A stretch of 19,252 nt of DNA. Source: Pseudomonas sp. ACM7. GTDB taxonomy: Bacteria > Pseudomonadota > Gammaproteobacteria > Pseudomonadales > Pseudomonadaceae. How positions within the stretch are numbered: the first letter of the stretch is position 1; each line of letters opens with the position of its first letter. Positions 8,781 through 19,118 of the stretch are shown in pieces. The notes under the pieces were generated by a model that saw only the letters and a list, made by a program, of their open reading frames with translations, searched no databases and had not been told where the DNA came from. Both the position numbers and the translations under genes were made by a program. The stretch covers positions 2,486,951 to 2,506,202 of the forward strand of contig NZ_CP024866.1 in assembly GCF_004136015.1 (NCBI RefSeq), read 5' to 3'.

Positions 8781-8938
8781 TGCGAGGCATCCAGGTCAGG
8801 CAGGTGGAAATCGGTCGATGGTGCAGGTTAGCCCGGTAAAAGACAATGGCACGGTGAGATCACTACTAGCGCGCTAAACTTTGTATGGCCGGTGCCATAA
8901 AAAACATCGCGGCCACGTCAGGGCGATCTTTTGTCCGT

Positions 8939-8967
8939 TTGACAACCTGTCAGGCAGTCACTAGTGT
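8939..8967 (+). promoter_or_regulatory. Sigma-70-type promoter of the gntR gene
   Basis: A perfect -35 TTGACA (8939-8944) and a poor -10 TAGTGT (8962-8967) are separated by 17 bp. Transcription would begin near 8974, which excludes the upstream ATG at 8885 as start of the downstream gene and favours GTG 9011. Confidence 0.55.
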
Positions 8968-8970
8968 CCC

Positions 8971-8980
8971 TTGGATCCAA
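8971..8980. promoter_or_regulatory. Candidate GntR/FCD operator, TTGGATCCAA
   Basis: A perfect 10-bp palindrome lies over the predicted transcription start of the gntR gene, 30 bp before its GTG. FCD-type GntR regulators bind short palindromes of this kind; the VanR operator in Caulobacter contains the same core. Autorepression is the inferred role. Confidence 0.5.
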
Positions 8981-9010
8981 ATTTATTTCAGTCAAACAGG
9001 GTGCGTAGTT

Positions 9011-9721
9011 GTGACACAGAAGCCCAATCCTCTGAACAGCATCAAGGTCAACGGGCCGATTCCCGCTCACCTGGCACGCTCGGTGATCGAAGAAACCCTG
9101 CGTTCGGCCATTCTCGACGGTCGCATTCCCTGCGGCACCGCCCTGCGTCAGCAAGATTTGGCCGATCTTTTCGGTGTCAGCCGCATGCCAGTGCGCGAAG
9201 CCTTGCGCCAGCTAGAAGCCCAGGCGCTGCTCAACGTCATCGCCCATAAAGGCGCCGTGGTCGCACCGCTGGTTCAGGGCGATGCCGTGGAAACCTACGC
9301 GCTGCGGATCCTGCTGGAATCCGAAGCGTTGCGCCTGTCGATCCCGTTACTGGTCAATGAGGATCTCGAACAGGCTGCCCGCTACATCGACGACCTGGAA
9401 ACGCAAAACAACTACACCGAAATCGGCCGGCTCAATCGGCTCTTCCACATGGCGCTGTACTGCAAGGCGCCGAACCAACGGCTGTTGAGGCTGGTGGAAG
9501 ACGGATTGAACGAAGAGGAGCGCTTCCTGCGCTTCAACCTGGAAGCCATGGGCCTGGGCAAACTGTCCCAGGAAGACCACCGGGCGCTGTTGCTGGCCGT
9601 CGAAGTCCGGGACGTCGAGCGCGCGGTGAAGTTGCTCGAACAACACCTCAACCGGGGCGTCGAGGTCATCACACGCTACCTCAACAGCCCCGAAGCGCTG
9701 AACAAGAAAACCTCCAAGTAA
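9011..9721 (+). CDS. GntR-family transcriptional regulator, FCD (FadR-type) subfamily
   Basis: A 236-residue protein from GTG 9011. Residues about 18-85 form the GntR winged helix, with the family signature MPVREALRQLE; the rest is an all-helical FCD ligand domain (about 90-225) that in relatives binds a carboxylate effector, often through a metal held by Asp/His residues. The frame runs back to an ATG at 8885, but that start would precede the promoter at 8939-8967 and would add 42 residues that do not look like the family. The length from 9011 fits FCD regulators. It is divergent from lapG and lies about 680 bp upstream of the mgo-like operon in the same direction, so it could govern either neighbour, itself, or an unlinked pathway. 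The ligand cannot be read from the sequence. Confidence 0.88.
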   Translation: MTQKPNPLNSIKVNGPIPAHLARSVIEETLRSAILDGRIPCGTALRQQDLADLFGVSRMPVREALRQLEAQALLNVIAHKGAVVAPLVQGDAVETYALRILLESEALRLSIPLLVNEDLEQAARYIDDLETQNNYTEIGRLNRLFHMALYCKAPNQRLLRLVEDGLNEEERFLRFNLEAMGLGKLSQEDHRALLLAVEVRDVERAVKLLEQHLNRGVEVITRYLNSPEALNKKTSK

Positions 9722-9729
9722 ACCGCGCC

Positions 9730-9773
9730 GGCAAGCCTGAGCGAGCAGATCGAACTGCTCGTTCTCGCTTGCC
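9730..9773 (+). terminator. Imperfect hairpin just after the gntR stop
   Basis: Outer stem GGCAAGC / GCTTGCC and inner stem CGAGCAG / CTGCTCG with loop ATCGAA are separated by a mostly unpaired stretch. It begins nine bases after the TAA. There is no T-run, so it may be a transcript-stabilising or Rho-linked hairpin, or a decayed REP element, rather than a true intrinsic terminator. Confidence 0.45.
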
Positions 9774-10397
9774 GCGCTGCGCTACGCCCCTCTCCAAAGC
9801 CCTGCCCTCGATTTACCCCTCTCAAGACCAACAATGACTCCGAGTCGATGACGCGCCAGTGATAGCGGCTGTCGTGATTTACGCTCACTCTTGGGCTGCC
9901 AACAAATAATGAACGGGCGACGCACCGCACGAGCGGCGCAGTCCCCGCACCAAGAACCTACGGAAGGAGTCTTGCCACGGGAAAGGAAGAACCGGCGTTG
10001 ATCCCAGCCAACTTCCCCCCCTCAGTCCACGTCGACGATTCAGTTAGAAAGTTGCTTCGAGTGAGGCATTCACTCTTCATTTTAATTCTGACTTATATAA
10101 GCCGGAAGGAGTAACTACATCCAAATAAAACTCTAATAAATAGTTTTATTGGAACTTGTCGCGCGCGAGAAAGTACAACTTTCAAATAATATAAAAATAA
10201 CTTGCCCGACACTTTGCTCATGTATTAGTTTTTCTCCGCCGCCTTGAATACCGGCACCAGGCCGTCACTTAACGACGCATTGCAACTTACCCATATCAAT
10301 TTGCTTGAGGCATCCGCTCGCCAGCAGAAAGCTTTAACTAACGATCGCTTATTCATTAAAACGCAACGGTATATCCAATTCACTTATAGGCTCACCC
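9774..10397. promoter_or_regulatory. Gene-free region upstream of the mgo-like operon, with AT-rich core and dyads
   Basis: No credible gene is seen here. Composition shifts from GC-rich (before about 10020) to strongly AT-rich: 10184-10200 is 17 consecutive A/T bases. Three perfect dyads occur: GAGTGA-N5-TCACTC (10059-10075), AATAAAACT-N9-AGTTTTATT (10124-10150) and GAAAGT-ACA-ACTTTC (10169-10183). The decamer CGGAAGGAGT occurs twice (9961-9970 and 10103-10112). I could not find a convincing -35/-10 pair with normal spacing. The operon promoter must lie here or read through from gntR. The mgoB ribosome site is a modest AGG (10388-10390), seven bases before its ATG. Confidence 0.6.
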
Positions 10398-11174
10398 ATG
10401 AAACCGACTAAAGACCGTCTCAACCAGAAGAAAGCAGAACTTAGCGCTCATCCGATCTTTTCTGAAATCAACTCACTGTCGGTATTGCAACGTTTCATGG
10501 AAACCCATGTGTTTGCAGTATGGGATTTCATGTCACTGACCAAACGCCTGCAACAGGAACTGACCTGCGTCCAGCTGCCCTGGCTGCCACCGCGAGATCC
10601 GCAGGCAGCGCGTTTGATCAACGAGATCGTGCTGGGTGAAGAGTCCGATGATCGTCCAGCTCACGGTCACTACAGCCATTTCGAGTTGTACCTTGATGCC
10701 ATGCGTGAAGTCGGCGCCAGCACGGCGGTGGTCGAGCGCTTCGTCGCGCTGCAAAAAGAAGGCGTGAGTTACGACGTGGCACTGCAAAGCGTGGACGTCG
10801 ATCCGGCGGCAGCGCAGTTCGTGCGCAACACGTTGCACACCGCGTTGCATGCGCCGGGGCACAGCGTTGCGGCGGCATTTCTGCATGGTCGCGAGAGCGT
10901 CATCCCGCAGATGTTCCAGCGAATTCTTGATGACTGGGGCATCGGCATCGAACAGGCGCCGACCTTCCGCTACTACCTCGAACGGCACATCGAAGTCGAT
11001 TCCGAAGACCATGGCCCCGCCGCTGAAAAACTCCTCGCCCGGCTGGTCAATGGCGATCCGCAACGCGAGGAAGACGTCTACGCCAGCGCCATCGCCGCCG
11101 TCGAAAGCCGAATCGCCCTGTGGGATGGCCTGCGCCTGAGCATGAGCGAACCGGTTGCCGAGGTGAATGCATGA
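10398..11174 (+). CDS. mgoB: MgoB/PvfA-like haem-oxygenase-fold protein
   Basis: A 258-residue, mostly helical protein of the haem-oxygenase-like type (DUF3050-like by recollection). First gene of the mgo/pvf operon; the family is required for full production of the diazeniumdiolate signal in other pseudomonads, but its exact reaction is not settled. Carboxylate and His candidates resembling a haem-oxygenase-like diiron centre are visible: E35 and H37 (METH), H94 and E96 (SHFE), H163 and E166 (LHGRE), and a C-terminal ERHIEVDxxxH stretch giving E195, H197, D201 and H205. This suggests a metal-dependent oxidase rather than a haem-degrading enzyme; that is inference. The stop TGA overlaps the next gene's ATG (ATGA at 11171-11174), which points to translational coupling. 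Confidence 0.85.
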
Positions 11175-12100
11175 ACGCCGCCGACTACCAATCCTTCGCC
11201 GATGCCTGGGAAAGCCGCGCGACCATCCGTACCCGCCCCCGGCGCGTGCTGGAAAACGACCACAAGCTGATCTACCCGTTGAGCCGCCAACCGTTGGTGC
11301 TGAGCGAAACCTTCCTGCGCGAATGCCCGGAGCAGCGCGACTTTGCGCTGGTGCAGACGCTCTACAAATTCATCAACGACGTGGTGATTTTCGAAACCGA
11401 AATCGTCGACAAGACCGCCCGCAGCATCGCCAAGAATCGCTTCGCCGTGGCCTTCCCGTTCGCCTGCCGTTACGACGCGATGACCGTGGTAGTGGACGAG
11501 GACTACCACGCGCTGGTGGCGATGGATTTCATGCAACAGACCGTCGCCATGACCGGCATCACGCCCATCGAACTGCCGGATGAAATCGAACTCAGCCGAT
11601 CCATTCCAGCGGCCGTGGCACTTGCGCCGGAACACCTGCGCAGCGCCGTGGAATTGATCTGCGTGGCCATCGCCGAGAACACCGTGACCGGCGATGTCGC
11701 CGCGTTCGCCAAGGACGACACGGTCAAGCAGTCGATCAAGGGCCTGATGGCCGACCACTTGCTCGACGAAGGTCGCCACTCCGGATTCTGGGCGCGGCTG
11801 GTGCGCATCTACTGGCACACCGCGAGCGAAGATGACCGCCAATGCATCGCGCACATCCTGCCGGTGTTCATTGGCCATTACCTGACCAACGACATCCAGA
11901 AATCGTTCGACTTCCGCCTGATCGACGCCTTGCAGATCAGCGACGCCGCACGCCAGGCCCTCAAGAGCGAAGTGTCGGGGCTGGCCTTCCCGATCAATCG
12001 CCATCACCCGCTGGTCGCCAACATCGTGCGGTTTTTCCGCAGCAGTTCGCTGCTCGATTCGCCGTGCGTGCAAGACGCCCTCAGCGATTACCTGGTTTAA
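11171..12100 (+). CDS. mgoC: MgoC/PvfB-like AurF-type diiron N-oxygenase
   Basis: A 309-residue protein of the AurF (p-aminobenzoate N-oxygenase) family. In mgo/pvf/ham clusters this enzyme oxidises the amino nitrogen on the way to the diazeniumdiolate (N-nitroso-hydroxylamine) group. All seven AurF metal ligands have counterparts with matching spacing: E75 (or E77), E110-x2-H113, E169, H196, E200-x2-H203; AurF has E101, E136/H139, E196, H223, E227/H230. It should therefore be active. The start is ATG 11171, overlapping the mgoB stop and preceded by GAGG (11160-11163); an in-frame GTG at 11120 lies inside mgoB and lacks support. The gene ends 13 bp before mgoA. Confidence 0.9.
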
Positions 12101-12113
12101 CGAGGAGCCCATC

Positions 12114-15100
12114 ATGAGACGTCTCGACATTCTGCTCATTGGACACAGCCAGGCCCTGACCGCCCTGGCGCTGGAACTTGAACAACACGGTCATTCTCTG
12201 GTGCGCCTGACAGCCGTCGACGAGCAGCCGTTGGGTAACGCTGATTTGCTGATCGATGACGCCAGCCTGCCTGTTCAAGACGTCGGCGATGTGCCGCGAC
12301 TGACGCTGCAACTGGGTATCGGTGTGCCTGGGGTTTCTGGCCTGCCGCCGCTGGACGTGCTGTGCACCTACGGTTCAACGCTGTTCACTCGCGTGCCTAT
12401 CACCGACGAACCTTCGGGCAATGGCCAGGCATTTCGCCTGCGTGCAGTGACGGAATTGGTCGATCACGTGGCGCTGCTGGTCAGCCGTTTCTGTCGCGAT
12501 GCCGACTATTTTCTATTGGCCGACCCTGCTGCTCCCGCTCACTTCGAGCACGTGGAAAACCTGCTCTATTTGGAGAACCTCGCGTTTTTCCATCGGCTCA
12601 ACCTCACGGCGGCTCCCGCGTTGCTGGAGCTCAGCAAAATCCCGATGATCGAGCGCCTTGAGCGGCGCTTCATCCAGTGTGCCGAACGACCCGCGCTAAA
12701 CATTGCCGGCTCATCCCTGAGCTATCGGCATTTGCACGCCCACAGCCGCGCGATCCAGCAGCGTTTGCAGCCGTTGCTCGCTCAGCATCGCGGGCCGTTG
12801 GTGATCGGGATCTGCCTGCCAAAATGCAGCGCGTTGTACGCGGGCATTCTCGCGATTCTTGGCAGTGGCGCGGTGTACCTGCCGCTGGAGCCGAGCCATC
12901 CCCTGCAACGTCAGCAGTACATTCTGGAAAACGCCGGGGCAGTGTTGCTGCTGCATGACGGTGAACATCCGCTCGCGGCGCAAATGCCGGGACTCGACAT
13001 CAGCCGCATCGACATCGGTGACGTGGATCTCGATCAACCCTTGATGCACCAACGACCCGATCCAGATGCGCCGTGCATGGCGCTCTATACCTCGGGCACC
13101 ACCGGCCATCCCAAAGGCGTGTTGCTCAGCCAGGCCAACCTCGCGCACTTCACCGCGTGGTACGCCGACTATGTGCAGCTGACCGAACAGAGCCGCGTGC
13201 TGCAGTTTTCGTCGTTGAGTTTCGACTCGTCGCTGATCGATATCTTCCCGACCCTGCTCCAGGGCGCCGAGCTGATCGTGCCCGGCGACGATCAGCGCCG
13301 CGATCCGTTGCAACTGGTCGAGCTGATCCGCCATCAACAACTGAGTCACGCCTTTTTGCCGCCGGCGTTGTTGAGCATCCTGCCGCTGGATCAATTGCAA
13401 TGCCTCGATCACGTGATGACCGGCGGCGATGTCTGCGAACCCTACGTCATCGAGCAGCTCACCCGTCAGGGCAACCTCTACAACCTCTATGGCCCTACCG
13501 AAGCGACGGTGTTGATTACCGCGCGGCAACTGCGCACCGGCGACAGTAATCGCACCCTCGGCGCGCCTATCGCTAACAGTCAGGTGCTGATTCTCGATGA
13601 GGATTTTCACCCGGTGGCCGAACAAACCGTCGGCGAGCTGTACATCGTCGGTCCGGGCGTGTGCCTGGGCTACCTGAACAACCCGCAGCAGACCGCCGAA
13701 CGTTATCTGAACCTGAGCCTGCCGGATGGCCAGAGCCTGCGCGCCTACCGTACCGGCGACATGGCGAAGTGGACCCGCGACGGCATCGAGCTGTGCGGAC
13801 GGCGGGACAATCAGGTGAAGATTCGCGGCTTTCGGGTCGAACCAGAAGAGATCGAACGCTGCCTGCGCGACAGTCAGTTGTACCGCCAAGTGGCAGTGGT
13901 TATCGACAGCCATCGACGGATTCTGGCGTTCCTCGCACAGCCTCAGGAGGATCAACCCGGCGCCGCTCGGGAAGCGCTGAAAGCCCACTCGATGCAGTTT
14001 CTGCCGGATTACATGCAGCCCACCGCATGGACCGAATTGCCGAGTATGCCATTCGCCAGCAACGGCAAAGTCGACCGCAAGGCGCTGCTGGCGATGCCCG
14101 TGAATGTCTCCGAAAACACGCTGCGGCGCTTACCCGCCAGTGCCGATGAGGCGTTGTTGTTGGAGATTTGGGCTGAATTGCTGGAGCTGCCGGCCAGCGA
14201 TATTTCCACCGACGAAAGTTTCTTCAACCTGGGCGGCCACTCGATCCTGCTGTCGCGCATGCTCTTGCGTTTGCGGGAAGAGTTCGGTCGCAGCATCTCG
14301 ATCAACCGCTTCATCGAATTGCCGACCATTGCCAAGTTGGCGACCTTGGTGCGCGGCTCCGGCACCGAAGAGGTATTGAGCGAAAAAGCCTTGGCCGATG
14401 CCTTCCGCGAACTGGATATTCAGCCGTTGCCAGTCAACCGTATGGGCGATGTGCACAAGGTGATCGTTACCGGCGCCAACAGCTTTGTCGGCGTGCACAT
14501 CGTCGAAGCGTTGCTCGCCTGGGGCGCCAGCGAAGTCGCCTGCCTGGTGCGCGATGGCGGTGGGCAATCGGCGGCCGAGCGTTTTGCCCATGCGCTGCGA
14601 GAAAACCGTCTGGAGCATCTGGACCTGAGCCGGGTGCGGGTCTATGCGGCGGACATTACGCGTGCGTCATTGGGGCTCGAAGCGGATGTTTACGAGCGAC
14701 TGGATCGGCAGTTCGGCGCGTTGGTGCACAACGCCGCCAACGTCAATCACGTACTCGATTACGAGTCACTGGCGCGGGACAACGTCGAGCCGATCTTCGA
14801 GTGCCTTCGGTTGTGCGAAGGGCGCAGCAAAAAGATCTTCAACTTCGTCTCGACGCTTTCGGCCTCCAGCACGATTGCCGCCGATGGTCGGGTGCTGGAA
14901 TTGCCCGCCGCGCAAACCCCGCCGATCTACATCAAGAACGGCTACAACCTGTCCAAATGGGTCGGTGAGCGGATCCTCGAACGGGCTCGCGAACGTGGCG
15001 TAAGGGTCAATCTTTATCGCCCCGGCAACATCAGTTTCAACAGCCTCACCGGTGTCTGCCAGCCGCACAAGAACCGCTTGATGCTGATGCTCAAAGGCTC

Positions 15101-15530
15101 GATCCAGCTCGGCCAGGTGCCGGAGTTCGCACTGAATTTCGACCTGATGCCGGTGGATTTTCTCGCACGGTTCATCGCCTTCCATGCCAGCCGTTATTCA
15201 GCCGAAAAAGCGGTGTTCAACCTGCACAACCCCGAGCCTCTGAGCTGGGATGCCTACGTCGCATCATTTCGTGAGGCGGGGCGGGAGTTTTCCATGGTCA
15301 GCGTCGCCGACTGGCAGCAGCAACTGGGCCGGGTCGACAGCGACAACGCGTTGTTCGGCGTGCTCGGTTTCTACCTCAACGGCTTCGAGGAAGACATCGG
15401 CGACATCTCAATGATCGGCCACGCCAACGCCCAGGCGGGCGTACGGCAGATGGGCGCGCACTACCCGGAAAAATCCCCGGCGCTGCTGCGTCGCGGCTGC
15501 GACTACCTGAAAGAAATCAACTTCATCTGA
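12114..15530 (+). CDS. mgoA: MgoA/PvfC-like nonribosomal peptide synthetase, (N-term)-A-T-R
   Basis: A 1138-residue single-module NRPS without a condensation domain. Residues 1 to about 175 are an extension of unclear fold that opens with a Rossmann-like DILLIG strand. The adenylation domain follows (about 177-680): core motif A3 at 324-336 (YTSGTTGHPKG), A5 YGPTEA at 459-464, A7 YRTGD at 545-549, A10 NGK at 650-652. The carrier domain has LGGHS with the phosphopantetheine Ser at 710. The C-terminal thioester reductase (about 780-1138) has the NAD(P)-binding TGANSFVG at 786-793 and the YxxxK pair Y944/K948, so the product would leave as an aldehyde or alcohol. Homologues load Leu or Val to make leudiazen or valdiazen. 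ATG 12114 has a strong GAGGAG ribosome site (12102-12107). Confidence 0.92.
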   Translation: MRRLDILLIGHSQALTALALELEQHGHSLVRLTAVDEQPLGNADLLIDDASLPVQDVGDVPRLTLQLGIGVPGVSGLPPLDVLCTYGSTLFTRVPITDEPSGNGQAFRLRAVTELVDHVALLVSRFCRDADYFLLADPAAPAHFEHVENLLYLENLAFFHRLNLTAAPALLELSKIPMIERLERRFIQCAERPALNIAGSSLSYRHLHAHSRAIQQRLQPLLAQHRGPLVIGICLPKCSALYAGILAILGSGAVYLPLEPSHPLQRQQYILENAGAVLLLHDGEHPLAAQMPGLDISRIDIGDVDLDQPLMHQRPDPDAPCMALYTSGTTGHPKGVLLSQANLAHFTAWYADYVQLTEQSRVLQFSSLSFDSSLIDIFPTLLQGAELIVPGDDQRRDPLQLVELIRHQQLSHAFLPPALLSILPLDQLQCLDHVMTGGDVCEPYVIEQLTRQGNLYNLYGPTEATVLITARQLRTGDSNRTLGAPIANSQVLILDEDFHPVAEQTVGELYIVGPGVCLGYLNNPQQTAERYLNLSLPDGQSLRAYRTGDMAKWTRDGIELCGRRDNQVKIRGFRVEPEEIERCLRDSQLYRQVAVVIDSHRRILAFLAQPQEDQPGAAREALKAHSMQFLPDYMQPTAWTELPSMPFASNGKVDRKALLAMPVNVSENTLRRLPASADEALLLEIWAELLELPASDISTDESFFNLGGHSILLSRMLLRLREEFGRSISINRFIELPTIAKLATLVRGSGTEEVLSEKALADAFRELDIQPLPVNRMGDVHKVIVTGANSFVGVHIVEALLAWGASEVACLVRDGGGQSAAERFAHALRENRLEHLDLSRVRVYAADITRASLGLEADVYERLDRQFGALVHNAANVNHVLDYESLARDNVEPIFECLRLCEGRSKKIFNFVSTLSASSTIAADGRVLELPAAQTPPIYIKNGYNLSKWVGERILERARERGVRVNLYRPGNISFNSLTGVCQPHKNRLMLMLKGSIQLGQVPEFALNFDLMPVDFLARFIAFHASRYSAEKAVFNLHNPEPLSWDAYVASFREAGREFSMVSVADWQQQLGRVDSDNALFGVLGFYLNGFEEDIGDISMIGHANAQAGVRQMGAHYPEKSPALLRRGCDYLKEINFI

Positions 15531-15552
15531 CTCACTCAACCGGAGCAAAACC

Positions 15553-16020
15553 ATGAAAACCCTACAACCCGATACCCTGATCAAAAACCCTCAAGACTGC
15601 CACGTCGTGTCCTCGGTGGAAGTGCCGGCCGATGCCAGGAAGGTTTGGGCAGTGGTCGGTAACTTTGCCGGCTTCGATCAATTCATTCCGGCTCTGTCGC
15701 ACATCGAGATGACCGGCGAAGGCGTATCGTCCCTGCGCAAGAAATTCTTCAAGGACGGCAACCTGGTGGTCGAGCAACTCAACTCCCGGGATGACCAGGC
15801 GCTGAACATGACCTGGACCACGATTTACAACACCTTGGGCGTGGCCAATTTGTGGGCGGCGATGAGTGTTGAACCGCTGGGTGCGGGCAAATCCCGAGCG
15901 ACCTGGACCATCATCGCCGAACCCGCACAGGGCGGCGCCGAGGCATTGCCGGGGTTCAGGGATTTCGTACAGGGCTTTGCCGATGACTCGATGAGCAATG
16001 TGTTGAAGCTGTTTGCGTAG
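15553..16020 (+). CDS. mgoD: MgoD/PvfD-like SRPBCC (polyketide cyclase/START-type) protein
   Basis: A 155-residue protein of the SRPBCC hydrophobic-pocket fold, recognisable from the N-terminal strand with EVPADARKVWAVVGNFAGF, the middle EQLNSRDDQALNMTW region and the long C-terminal helix. No signal peptide or catalytic motif stands out. It is the last gene of the mgo/pvf operon, 22 bp after mgoA, with a GGAG ribosome site (15542-15545) before ATG 15553. The homologous mgoD/pvfD is part of the signal operon, but its step is not firmly known; binding or shaping a hydrophobic intermediate is a plausible inference. The REP pair that begins 33 bp after the stop probably ends or stabilises the operon transcript. 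Confidence 0.87.
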   Translation: MKTLQPDTLIKNPQDCHVVSSVEVPADARKVWAVVGNFAGFDQFIPALSHIEMTGEGVSSLRKKFFKDGNLVVEQLNSRDDQALNMTWTTIYNTLGVANLWAAMSVEPLGAGKSRATWTIIAEPAQGGAEALPGFRDFVQGFADDSMSNVLKLFA

Positions 16021-16053
16021 GGCTTTGGCTCAGCGGTGACTAATCTACCGCTA

Positions 16054-16143
16054 TCGCGAGCAAGCTCGCTCCCACATTGATCTTCAGTGATCACAACATT
16101 TGTGAACGACTGAGAACCCCTGTGGGAGCGAGCTTGCTCGCGA
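16054..16143. repeat. Classic Pseudomonas REP pair (REPIN) after mgoD
   Basis: Two perfect 23-bp complementary arms (16054-16076 and 16121-16143) carry the usual REP core GTGGGAGCGAGCTTGCTCGC; 44 bases lie between. It sits between converging mgoD and the chemoreceptor gene and may act as a barrier for both transcripts. The arms lack the extra internal segment of the element at 5971-6101. Confidence 0.92.
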
Positions 16144-16173
16144 AGAACGATAACGCGGTCCAACTGACCTGAA

Positions 16174-18054
16174 TCAGATTTTGAAGCTGTCGACCAACTG
16201 CTTCAATCGGTTCGCCTGCAAGGACAACGCATCGCAATCCTTCAGCGTTTCATTGAGGTTGGCCACGCTCTGCTGGTTCAGCAGGTTGATCTGGTTAACG
16301 TCGACGTTGAGGGTTTCCACGACCGCCGTCTGCTCTTCGGTTGCCGCGGCCACCGACTGGTTCATGCCGTCTATTTCGCCGATGCGCTGGGTCACGCTGA
16401 CCAGTCGCAGACCGGCCTGGTTCGCCACTTCGACGCTCTGTTCGCTGGAGACCTGACTGGCGTTCATCGTGGTCACCGCTTCGCGAGAACCGATCTGCAG
16501 CGAGGTGATCATCTTGTGGATCTCCTCCGCCGATTCCTGAGTGCGGTGAGCGAGGTTTCGCACCTCGTCCGCCACCACCGCGAAACCACGACCGGCTTCA
16601 CCGGCGCGGGCCGCTTCGATGGCCGCGTTGAGCGCGAGCAAGTTGGTTTGCTGGGAGATGCCTTTGATCACATCCAGAATGTGCCCGATGTTGTCGGTGC
16701 TGGCGTTCAGGGTTTCGATCTGGGTGCAGGACAGGCTGATTTTCTGCGACAACTCGGTCATCGCCAGAATGGTTTTCTCCACCACCTGACGACCATCATC
16801 AGCCTGCTCGCTCGCGCCGCTGGCGTGCTGGGAAGCATCGGCGGCGTTGCGGGCGATTTCCTGGGTGGCGGCGCCCAACTGGTTGATCGCCGCGGCCACA
16901 CTGTTAGTGCGGGCGCTTTGCTCGTCGGAGCCGACGATCGAGGCGTTGGACGAGGCCATTACCCGTTGCGACAGATCGTGAACCTGGCGGGTGGCCGACG
17001 ACACTTCGGAAATTGACGCGTGAATTCGCTCCACGAACTGGTTGAACGAACCGCCTAGCTCACCGAATTCGTCTTTGCTTTCCACGGCCAGACGTCGAGT
17101 CAGATCGCCCTCACCTTGAGCAATGTCCTGCATCGCACGGCCCATGGTGGTCAGCGGACGCATCAGCACGTTGATCAGCAGGCTCAGCAGCACTGCAATG
17201 GCCGTCACGGCGATGAACATCGCGATTAGCGCAGAAGTACGGAACTGACTGAGTGGTGCGTAGGCCTTGTCCTTGTCGATCGACAGACCGATGTACCACT
17301 CGGCATTCGGCAAACCACTGACCGGCGTGAACGAAAGGATACGGTCCTGCTTGTTCAGGGTGACTTCCTGATTGCCCTTCTCGATGCGCACGCCGGCGTT
17401 CGGGTAGATGTCCTTCAGGTTTTTCATCACCTGGTCCTTGTCCGGGCTGACGATCACCTGACCGTCGGCGCTGACCAGGAATGCGTGGCCGATGCCACCG
17501 AAATCCACCGAGTTGATGATCTTCACCAGCGTTTCCAGGCTCAGGTCGCCGCCGACCACGCCGAGCAACTCGCCGTTCTTTTTCACCGGCAGGGCGATGG
17601 TCACCACCAAGCCACCGACGGCAGCCATGTAAGGCGGGGTCAGCATGGTCTTGTCGGCAGCCACGGCCTGTTTGTACCAGGGACGCTGACGCGGATCGTA
17701 ACCGTCAGGCATCTTCGCGTCCGGGCGCTGAGTAAACACGCCGTTGGCCTGGCCCACGTAGGTGAACTGGAAGTTCGAGGTCAGGGCCGGTTGACTGACC
17801 AGCCCCGGGAGGTCGGCATTGGCGCCTTGATGGGCGACGTTTTGCGCGAGGTTTTCCAGCACCAGCACACGGCCACTCATCCAGTTCTGCACGCTGCTGG
17901 CGGTCAGATCGCCGGCCTGCTGGACGCTCGATTCAAGGTTTTGACGGATGGTGTTTCGCTGCAGATAGTCGTTGTACAAAGTGAACAACGCAAAAGCCAG
18001 CACCACAACGCCGGAGGCGGCCAGAAGGATTTTATGGCTGAATTTGAGATTCAT
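16174..18054 (-). CDS. Methyl-accepting chemotaxis protein, amino-acid-type dCache (PctA/CtaA-like)
   Basis: A 626-residue transmembrane chemoreceptor. TM1 is about 10-30; a periplasmic double-Cache domain spans about 33-270; TM2 is about 274-297; HAMP about 298-350; then the cytoplasmic signalling domain with the conserved hairpin tip ([19 protein letters not shown]) that contacts CheA/CheW. The amino-acid-binding Cache motif is complete: Y119, R124, W126, Y127 and D170, with the spacing of PctA (Y121, R126, W128, Y129, D173). Length and N-terminus also resemble PctA of P. aeruginosa and CtaA-C of P. fluorescens, so amino acids are the expected ligands; which ones cannot be told. The start at 18054 is chosen over an in-frame ATG at 18165, which falls at the predicted transcription start. 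It appears to be a single-gene unit. Confidence 0.94.
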
Positions 18055-18770: not shown

Positions 18771-18780
18771 GGAATTCAAT

Positions 18781-18896
18781 CTTGACGATGACCTACTCTC
18801 ACATGGGGAAACCCCACACTACCATCGGCGATGCATCGTTTCACTGCTGAGTTCGGGATGGGATCAGGTGGTTCCAATGCTCTATGGTCGTCAAGA
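18781..18896 (-). rRNA. rrf: 5S ribosomal RNA, distal tandem copy
   Basis: The minus strand shows the Pseudomonas 5S rRNA: paired ends CTTGACGACC and GGTCATCGTCAAG, and the internal GATCCCATCCCGAACTC stretch. It is identical to the second copy 222 bp to the right over the whole gene. Exact mature ends may differ by a few bases. Confidence 0.96.
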
Positions 18897-18991: not shown

Positions 18992-19002
18992 CGGAATTTA
19001 AT

Positions 19003-19118
19003 CTTGACGATGACCTACTCTCACATGGGGAAACCCCACACTACCATCGGCGATGCATCGTTTCACTGCTGAGTTCGGGATGGGATCAGGTGGTTCCAAT
19101 GCTCTATGGTCGTCAAGA
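19003..19118 (-). rRNA. rrf: 5S ribosomal RNA, proximal tandem copy
   Basis: Same 5S sequence as the copy at 18781-18896. It is nearest to the expected 23S gene, so it is the ordinary 5S of the operon, and the other copy is the extra one. Confidence 0.96.

Follow-up and report, generated by a model that had tools for sequence, protein, structure and literature searches.

The stretch of DNA analyzed here (the window; 19,252 nucleotides of Pseudomonas sp. ACM7, G000:C1:2486951-2506202) carries at positions 10398-16020 a complete mgoBCAD operon, orthologous to the mgo operon of P. syringae. The operon is preceded, on its own strand, by a structured RNA element of ~250 nt (about 9905-10155), which is strongly supported as a conserved structure. 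The mgo operon here is of a known kind and ordinary, since 182 of the 298 genus genomes contain MgoC (at E 1e-20, with weak matches in G137 and G223), and its conservation across fluorescent pseudomonads is already in print (PMC3945005). The RNA was not found in Rfam or the searched literature and appears new relative to both. An earlier sequence-only reading of the window, confined to 10398-16020, overlooked the RNA as well as the promoter upstream of mgoB.

Structure and covariation of the RNA element

Alignment of 30 loci reveals a conserved block at about 9850-10155, between the gene for a GntR regulator (ending at 9721) and mgoB (starting at 10398); the DNA adjoining mgoB, a stretch of roughly 170 bp reaching back to the promoter, is poorly conserved. 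The RNA is composed of the following parts, the core having been derived by RNAalifold and hand pairing and being supported by covariation (models R1 and R2, see below):

9930..10020, forward strand: RNA 5' domain, with a hairpin around a conserved AAGGAG and a GGAAG..CUUCC hairpin
10048..10155, forward strand: RNA core, a three-way junction plus AU hairpin
10050-10058/10108-10116, 10059-10064/10070-10075 and 10086-10093/10100-10107, forward strand: junction helices
10125-10132/10142-10149, forward strand: AU hairpin (helix 4)

Compensatory base changes in the core go beyond the controls. In alignment A4 (47 sequences, including divergent ones) 92.8% of the cells are paired, compared with 82.9% in shuffled and 39-48% in slid controls, and 22 of the 31 pairs have changed on both sides (7 of 9 pairs in helix 1); none of 500 shuffles reached these levels of pairing and both-side changes. 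Alignment A1, prepared without structure from 66 class-i sequences (66 of 79 distinct core sequences; A2 took 55 of 69), shows 95.8% of cells pairing against 93.3% shuffled and 38-54% slid, with 10 of the 31 pairs changed on both sides. Alignment A3, in which two matches were on the reverse strand, was superseded by A4. Over the RNA pairs, G-U is found in 118 cells and A-C in 24, an excess that assigns the RNA to the mgo strand (+); for helices 1-3 the counts are 114 and 17. Of 108 loci, 107 retain the AGGAG sequence, against an expectation of 12.3; this count and the strand bias were taken from loci showing the hairpin pattern exactly, supplemented by 20 R1 hits.

At gathering thresholds, 5S rRNA alone was matched when the whole window was searched against Rfam 15, and a search of 9700-10450 with E values up to 5 gave just one microRNA match, far below threshold. 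Among the listed matches to open-licence papers, no title or opening abstract concerned this RNA, and it is unmentioned in the consulted parts of the P. syringae papers. A small open reading frame (ORF) was also considered and rejected on inspection by eye, with no formal coding test applied: in the sequences inspected, no ATG, GTG or TTG stands at the usual distance after the second AAGGAG, and the short frame that opens with TTG behind the first AAGGAG is seemingly not kept.

Association of the RNA with the mgo operon

Forty further mgo loci were fetched and sorted into three classes. Class i (22 loci) consists of GntR, a long gap and mgoBCAD, and class ii (12 loci) of GntR with a shorter gap. 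Class iii (6 loci) has no GntR within the fetched stretch and contains extra DNA between mgoB and mgoC, as in the ham cluster; this DNA contains an ORF in the four of six loci that were translated, and Pfam Cupin_7 was recognized in both ORFs tested. The window and L173, a P. syringae-type locus described below, belong to class i.

Two models were used to search for the RNA: R1, and R2, which was built from the divergent set. R1 matches 126 of the 298 genus genomes, once each, and all 126 matches share the strand of mgoC and lie 996-1166 bp upstream of it (the distances cover those MgoC genomes whose coordinates are listed, 149 in number, of which 23 lack an R1 match; 33 more MgoC genomes are unlisted). 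R2 recovers these 126 genomes plus G069, G078, G140 and G168, where the match lies 1129-1130 bp upstream of mgoC; its matches are thus distributed among 130 of the 182 genomes with MgoC and none of the 116 without it. The co-occurrence of R1 with MgoC has a Fisher p of 9e-40, a value to be read with the caution that related genomes are not independent. In an order-wide sample only 2 of 194 match the RNA, both from Pseudomonas.

The same division is seen among the fetched loci. The RNA is present in all 22 class-i loci, in 20 of them by R1 at E 0.02 or better and in L149 and L161 by R2 (E 0.008 and 0.014; both matches are correctly oriented and fall in the gap before mgoB). Before mgoB, no match occurs in the 12 class ii or the 6 class iii loci; L155 has one weak match (E 0.52), located after mgoD. 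GntR is present in 240 of the 298 genus genomes, so that at least 58 have GntR but no MgoC, and the RNA is found in none of these. Ten mgo-less loci were also fetched, all of which contain lapG and GntR and none of which has a match to an mgo gene; R2 applied to them without filters gave nothing better than E 2.3. The absence of the RNA from GntR-bearing, mgo-less loci indicates that the element is tied to mgo rather than to GntR.

Two MgoC matches each were observed in seven genomes (G168, G025, G121, G167, G187, G235 and G278). One member of the G168 pair (L163 and L164) is a GntR-linked class-i locus with the RNA, and the other is a class iii locus without it. The class ii loci (L150-L153, L155, L156, L158, L160, L165, L168, L170 and L171) have their own conserved stretches in the GntR-mgoB gap, including ACTTATAGGCA directly before mgoB in most of them. 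A common structure was sought in nine class ii leaders; none was convincing, and the reverse strand scored slightly higher.

Promoter and upstream motifs

Two conserved sequences flank the RNA:

9878..9894, forward strand: motif TTTACGCTCACTCTTGG, conserved before the RNA in the 30-locus alignment
10202..10228, forward strand: mgo promoter-like site TTGCCC-N15-TATTAG, conserved

According to a loose pattern, the promoter-like site lies 43-48 bp 3' of the RNA in 21 of 26 loci, and this near-constant spacing suggests coupling in cis. A strict sigma70 scan of 9700-16200 yielded no sites and did not report the one at 10202-10228; terminator-like sites in the same interval number 5, against 6.8 in shuffles. 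The placement of L173 in the P. syringae group rests on sequence, namely the letters of the published promoter and terminator, rather than on a name. In L173 the promoter letters published for P. syringae are spaced 21 bases apart, 26 of 26 bases of the published terminator are present, the gap is 813 bp compared with the published 814, and a 5S rRNA comes directly after mgoD; because these agree it is regarded as a P. syringae-group locus. Its promoter-like site coincides with the P. syringae promoter mapped by rapid amplification of 5' cDNA ends (5'RACE), which places the RNA just upstream of a mapped promoter; the published mgo start is accordingly downstream of the RNA.

The motif TTTACGCTCACTCTTGG occurs in the genome as one exact copy and at one place with two mismatches; our guess is that it may represent a candidate promoter or binding site of the RNA. 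Helix 4 corresponds to an inverted repeat, ATAAAACT-N9-AGTTTTAT (10125-10149), and may double as a protein-binding site. A regulon sharing the exact repeat was sought in the genome, and the mgo copy alone was returned.

The mgo genes and their likely product

The four genes, which the sequence-only reading had placed in mgo/pvf order, are borne out at their coordinates by Pfam families and reading frames:

10398..11174, forward strand: mgoB/pvfA/hamA, haem-oxygenase-like protein of 258 amino acids (Pfam DUF3050/Haem_oxygenas_2, PF11251, E 8e-89)
11171..12100, forward strand: mgoC/pvfB/hamC, AurF-type diiron N-oxygenase of 309 amino acids (PF11583, E 6e-18)
12114..15530, forward strand: mgoA/pvfC/hamD, adenylation-thiolation-reductase (A-T-R) nonribosomal peptide synthetase of 1138 amino acids (AMP-binding PF00501, PP-binding PF00550, NAD_binding_4 PF07993)
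15553..16020, forward strand: mgoD/pvfD/hamE, SRPBCC protein of 155 amino acids (Polyketide_cyc2, PF10604)

The spacing is operon-like: the ATGA overlap (4 bp) of mgoB and mgoC and the later gaps of 13 and 22 bp are exactly as previously read. MgoB matches the solved DUF3050 structure 9vwb at E 1e-73, and some of its nearest relatives are labelled "mangotoxin biosynthesis-involved protein MgoB" by a source. MgoC matches AurF itself (3chh) at E 1e-9. Its seven putative ligands, E75, E110, H113, E169, H196, E200 and H203, follow the AurF ligand pattern in the alignment to AurF, and are invariant in all loci with coverage at these positions (120 or 121 of 121; the shortfall of one reflects lack of coverage). 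The carrier Ser710, the reductase residues Y944 and K948 (YxxxK) and the A10 K652 of MgoA are kept in 121 of 121 loci. The catalytic residues of the N-oxygenase, carrier and reductase reported as intact are therefore present and conserved. The 6.6-Mb single-contig genome contains a single full-length MgoA match.

A tree of MgoA, which the sequence-only reading had proposed, was built from 56 rows (the window, 16 named loci and 39 of the 40 fetched loci; L174, cut by its contig, was left out). A branch with support 100 separates class ii from all other rows, and another does the same for class iii (the root is arbitrary); the window falls in class i together with L173. The adenylation-domain signature of the window, in a position numbering that is presumably the standard one, is DSIFMGLVLK; L173 and L177 have the same signature, as do 91 of the 121 loci overall. 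DALF-type signatures characterize the cupin class and seven class-i loci (L178, L179, L182-L184, L187 and L188); since these seven carry the RNA, the element is not bound to one signature.

The P. syringae-type signature points to the leucine subgroup, and because it equals that of L173, the likeliest product would be a leucine-derived, leudiazen-type signal. Leucine has been predicted for mgo (eLife 2021), and leudiazen is described for P. syringae in PMC8473136, which itself cites a preprint. Burkholderia cenocepacia is the species from which valdiazen was isolated (PMC5878181), whereas the sequence-only reading had attributed it to P. entomophila. According to PMC10194917 the signal of P. 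entomophila is unknown, though a title in the reference list of that paper connects PvfB, an enzyme of the P. entomophila type, with the in vitro biosynthesis of valdiazen.

Main interpretation and alternatives

We consider it probable that the region as a whole represents an orthologous mgo operon, which would produce a leudiazen-type signal and be served by a dedicated, transcribed upstream RNA. Several observations weigh against this interpretation. A4 was aligned to the model, a procedure that favors structure; A1, aligned without it, agrees but has fewer changes. Helix 4 exhibits no strand bias (G-U 4, A-C 7 cells) and might instead act as an operator in the DNA. The 5' domain covaries weakly: in a test on 77 rows selected for AAGGAG, pairing reached 89.6% of cells compared with 88.5% after shuffling, and double changes affected 5 pairs compared with 3.3. 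The fold of the single sequence modestly beats shuffles, about equally on the two strands (z -2.77, and -2.65 on the other strand), and the palindromic core gives weak reverse-strand matches in some loci. The RNA and the operon adjoin, so one deletion may remove both, and the 12 class ii and 6 class iii loci without the RNA at the operon imply that mgo can work without it. For leucine, the basis is the agreement in signature letters together with a prediction from the literature.

Among the alternatives, the RNA could form the 5' portion of an extended mgo leader that begins at a second, upstream start and switches the operon in cis. Its strand, its strict linkage to mgo, the near-constant distance to the -35 box and, by eye, the lack of a poly-U run 3' of the AU hairpin are all consistent with a leader. 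In P. syringae, however, the 5'RACE start is downstream of the RNA and reverse-transcription PCR did not join ORF2, the GntR gene, to mgoB; in the window, moreover, the roughly 170 bp from promoter to mgoB are poorly conserved, and we consider this explanation somewhat unlikely. It is rather improbable that the region is a DNA control element, in which the inverted repeat at 10125-10149 binds the signal receptor and the remainder is supporting sequence. The constant distance to the promoter, the unbiased helix 4 with its little-varying AAAAC/GTTTT core and the single exact copy of the repeat in the genome would fit such an element, but DNA binding leaves unexplained why helices 1-3 covary and favor G-U over A-C so strongly.

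A role as an RsmA/RsmE decoy linking Gac to the operon is suggested by the decrease of the mgo transcript in a P. syringae gacA mutant, the GGA motifs noted upstream there and the retention of AGGAG. When this was tested, the GGA was unpaired in the local fold in 20 of 107 loci, not above the shuffled flanks (0.278), and the second AAGGAG is paired inside the junction; enrichment of GGA in hairpin loops was not observed, which makes a decoy very unlikely. As to the product, what the Pvf enzymes form in P. entomophila and Pf0-1 includes dihydropyrazine N-oxides as well as leucinazole, and a valine-type signal or pyrazine N-oxide might accordingly be the main product here. We view this as unlikely, given that the signature is identical to that of the P. 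syringae-type locus and differs from those of the cupin-bearing, ham-like loci, and that the eLife 2021 prediction for mgo is leucine.

Proposed mechanism and significance

In the proposed pathway, MgoA would load an amino acid, of which leucine is the likeliest; MgoC would convert the amine to a diazeniumdiolate together with MgoB and MgoD; and the reductase domain of MgoA would free the product as an aldehyde and then an alcohol, the leudiazen-type diffusible signal. The operon would be transcribed from the conserved promoter at 10202-10228. The RNA at 9905-10155 would be transcribed as well and would serve mgo alone, either as a separate small regulatory RNA or as an upstream leader tuning mgo or its targets; its transcription and role are predicted from conservation, pairing and position.

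In the ham and pvf relatives the signal raises the expression of its own operon (PMC10194917, PMC5878181), and the gacA mutant of P. syringae has a lower mgo transcript; we infer that the region upstream of mgoB is where such control acts. GntR is not favored as the receptor, as a published P. syringae ORF2 mutant still makes mangotoxin and GntR is found without mgo. We advance more tentatively the idea that the element is a dedicated regulatory RNA of diazeniumdiolate signaling, old in the genus, occurring only with the operon and carrying part of the regulation or output of the signal.

Several pseudomonads have their toxins and secondary metabolites under the control of this class of signals, and PMC10194917 defers the receptor and transduction to future work. 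A covarying RNA found exclusively alongside the operon, next to a promoter that has been mapped in P. syringae, provides a concrete target for deletion and assay. If the RNA acts in the circuit, current models of mgo/pvf regulation miss a component that at least 130 of the 182 sampled genomes with the operon carry.

Neighboring genes and the mgo-less site

The regulator gene upstream of the RNA is the orthologue of P. syringae ORF2:

8885..9721, forward strand: GntR/FCD regulator (PF07729, PF00392), start codon uncertain

Many divergent orthologues align with it just from residue 30-50, and some near ones from residue 3. The first 5460 positions of the window contain the C-terminal part of a LapA-type RTX adhesin, adjoined by LapD and LapG, both above NCBIfam equivalog cut-offs. 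The adjacency to the lap locus pointed out earlier is thus real but nothing special, as GntR occurs in 78 and LapG in 76 of the 80 named loci and the P. syringae locus matches. At about 16050-16150, 3' of mgoD, an inverted pair of GCGAGCAAGCTCGCTCCCACA-like repeats, which we take to be of the REP type, was noted by eye, and two tandem 5S rRNA genes (18780-18895 and 19002-19117) lie on the strand opposite mgo.

In nine of the ten mgo-less loci a gene for a methyl-accepting chemotaxis protein (MCP) or a 5S gene follows within about 500 bp after GntR. The exception, L200 (G107), has by eye a thioesterase-like reading frame between GntR and an MCP remnant. In L195 (G273) an apparent decayed remnant of mgoD follows GntR at an otherwise empty site (by eye; tblastn at 1e-3 was silent), which suggests loss of the operon there.

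Comparison with known systems

The mgo RNA shares with the RsmX/Y/Z small RNAs a conserved GGA-containing motif, but unlike them it has no Rfam match, places GGA in loops no more often than the controls do, and occurs beside one operon only. In the hamABCDE cluster of B. cenocepacia H111, HamA, HamC, HamD and HamE are the counterparts of MgoB, MgoC, MgoA and MgoD; a cupin gene, hamB, separates hamA from hamC, whereas in the window the corresponding genes overlap at ATGA. Cupin ORFs between mgoB and mgoC are also found within Pseudomonas, in L157, L162, L164 and L166, all without the RNA. The pvfABCD operon of P. entomophila L48 has four genes encoding the same enzyme types (PMC10194917).

The window has its locus in common with mgoBCAD of P. 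syringae pv. syringae UMAF0158, which is alike in gene order, GntR upstream, 5S rRNA downstream, promoter place and signature, and differs from it in the MCP gene situated between mgoD and the rRNA genes. Compared with the P. syringae-type L173, the identities are 74% for MgoB, 80% for MgoC, 65% for MgoA and 63% for MgoD, and in L173, too, the operon is preceded by the RNA.

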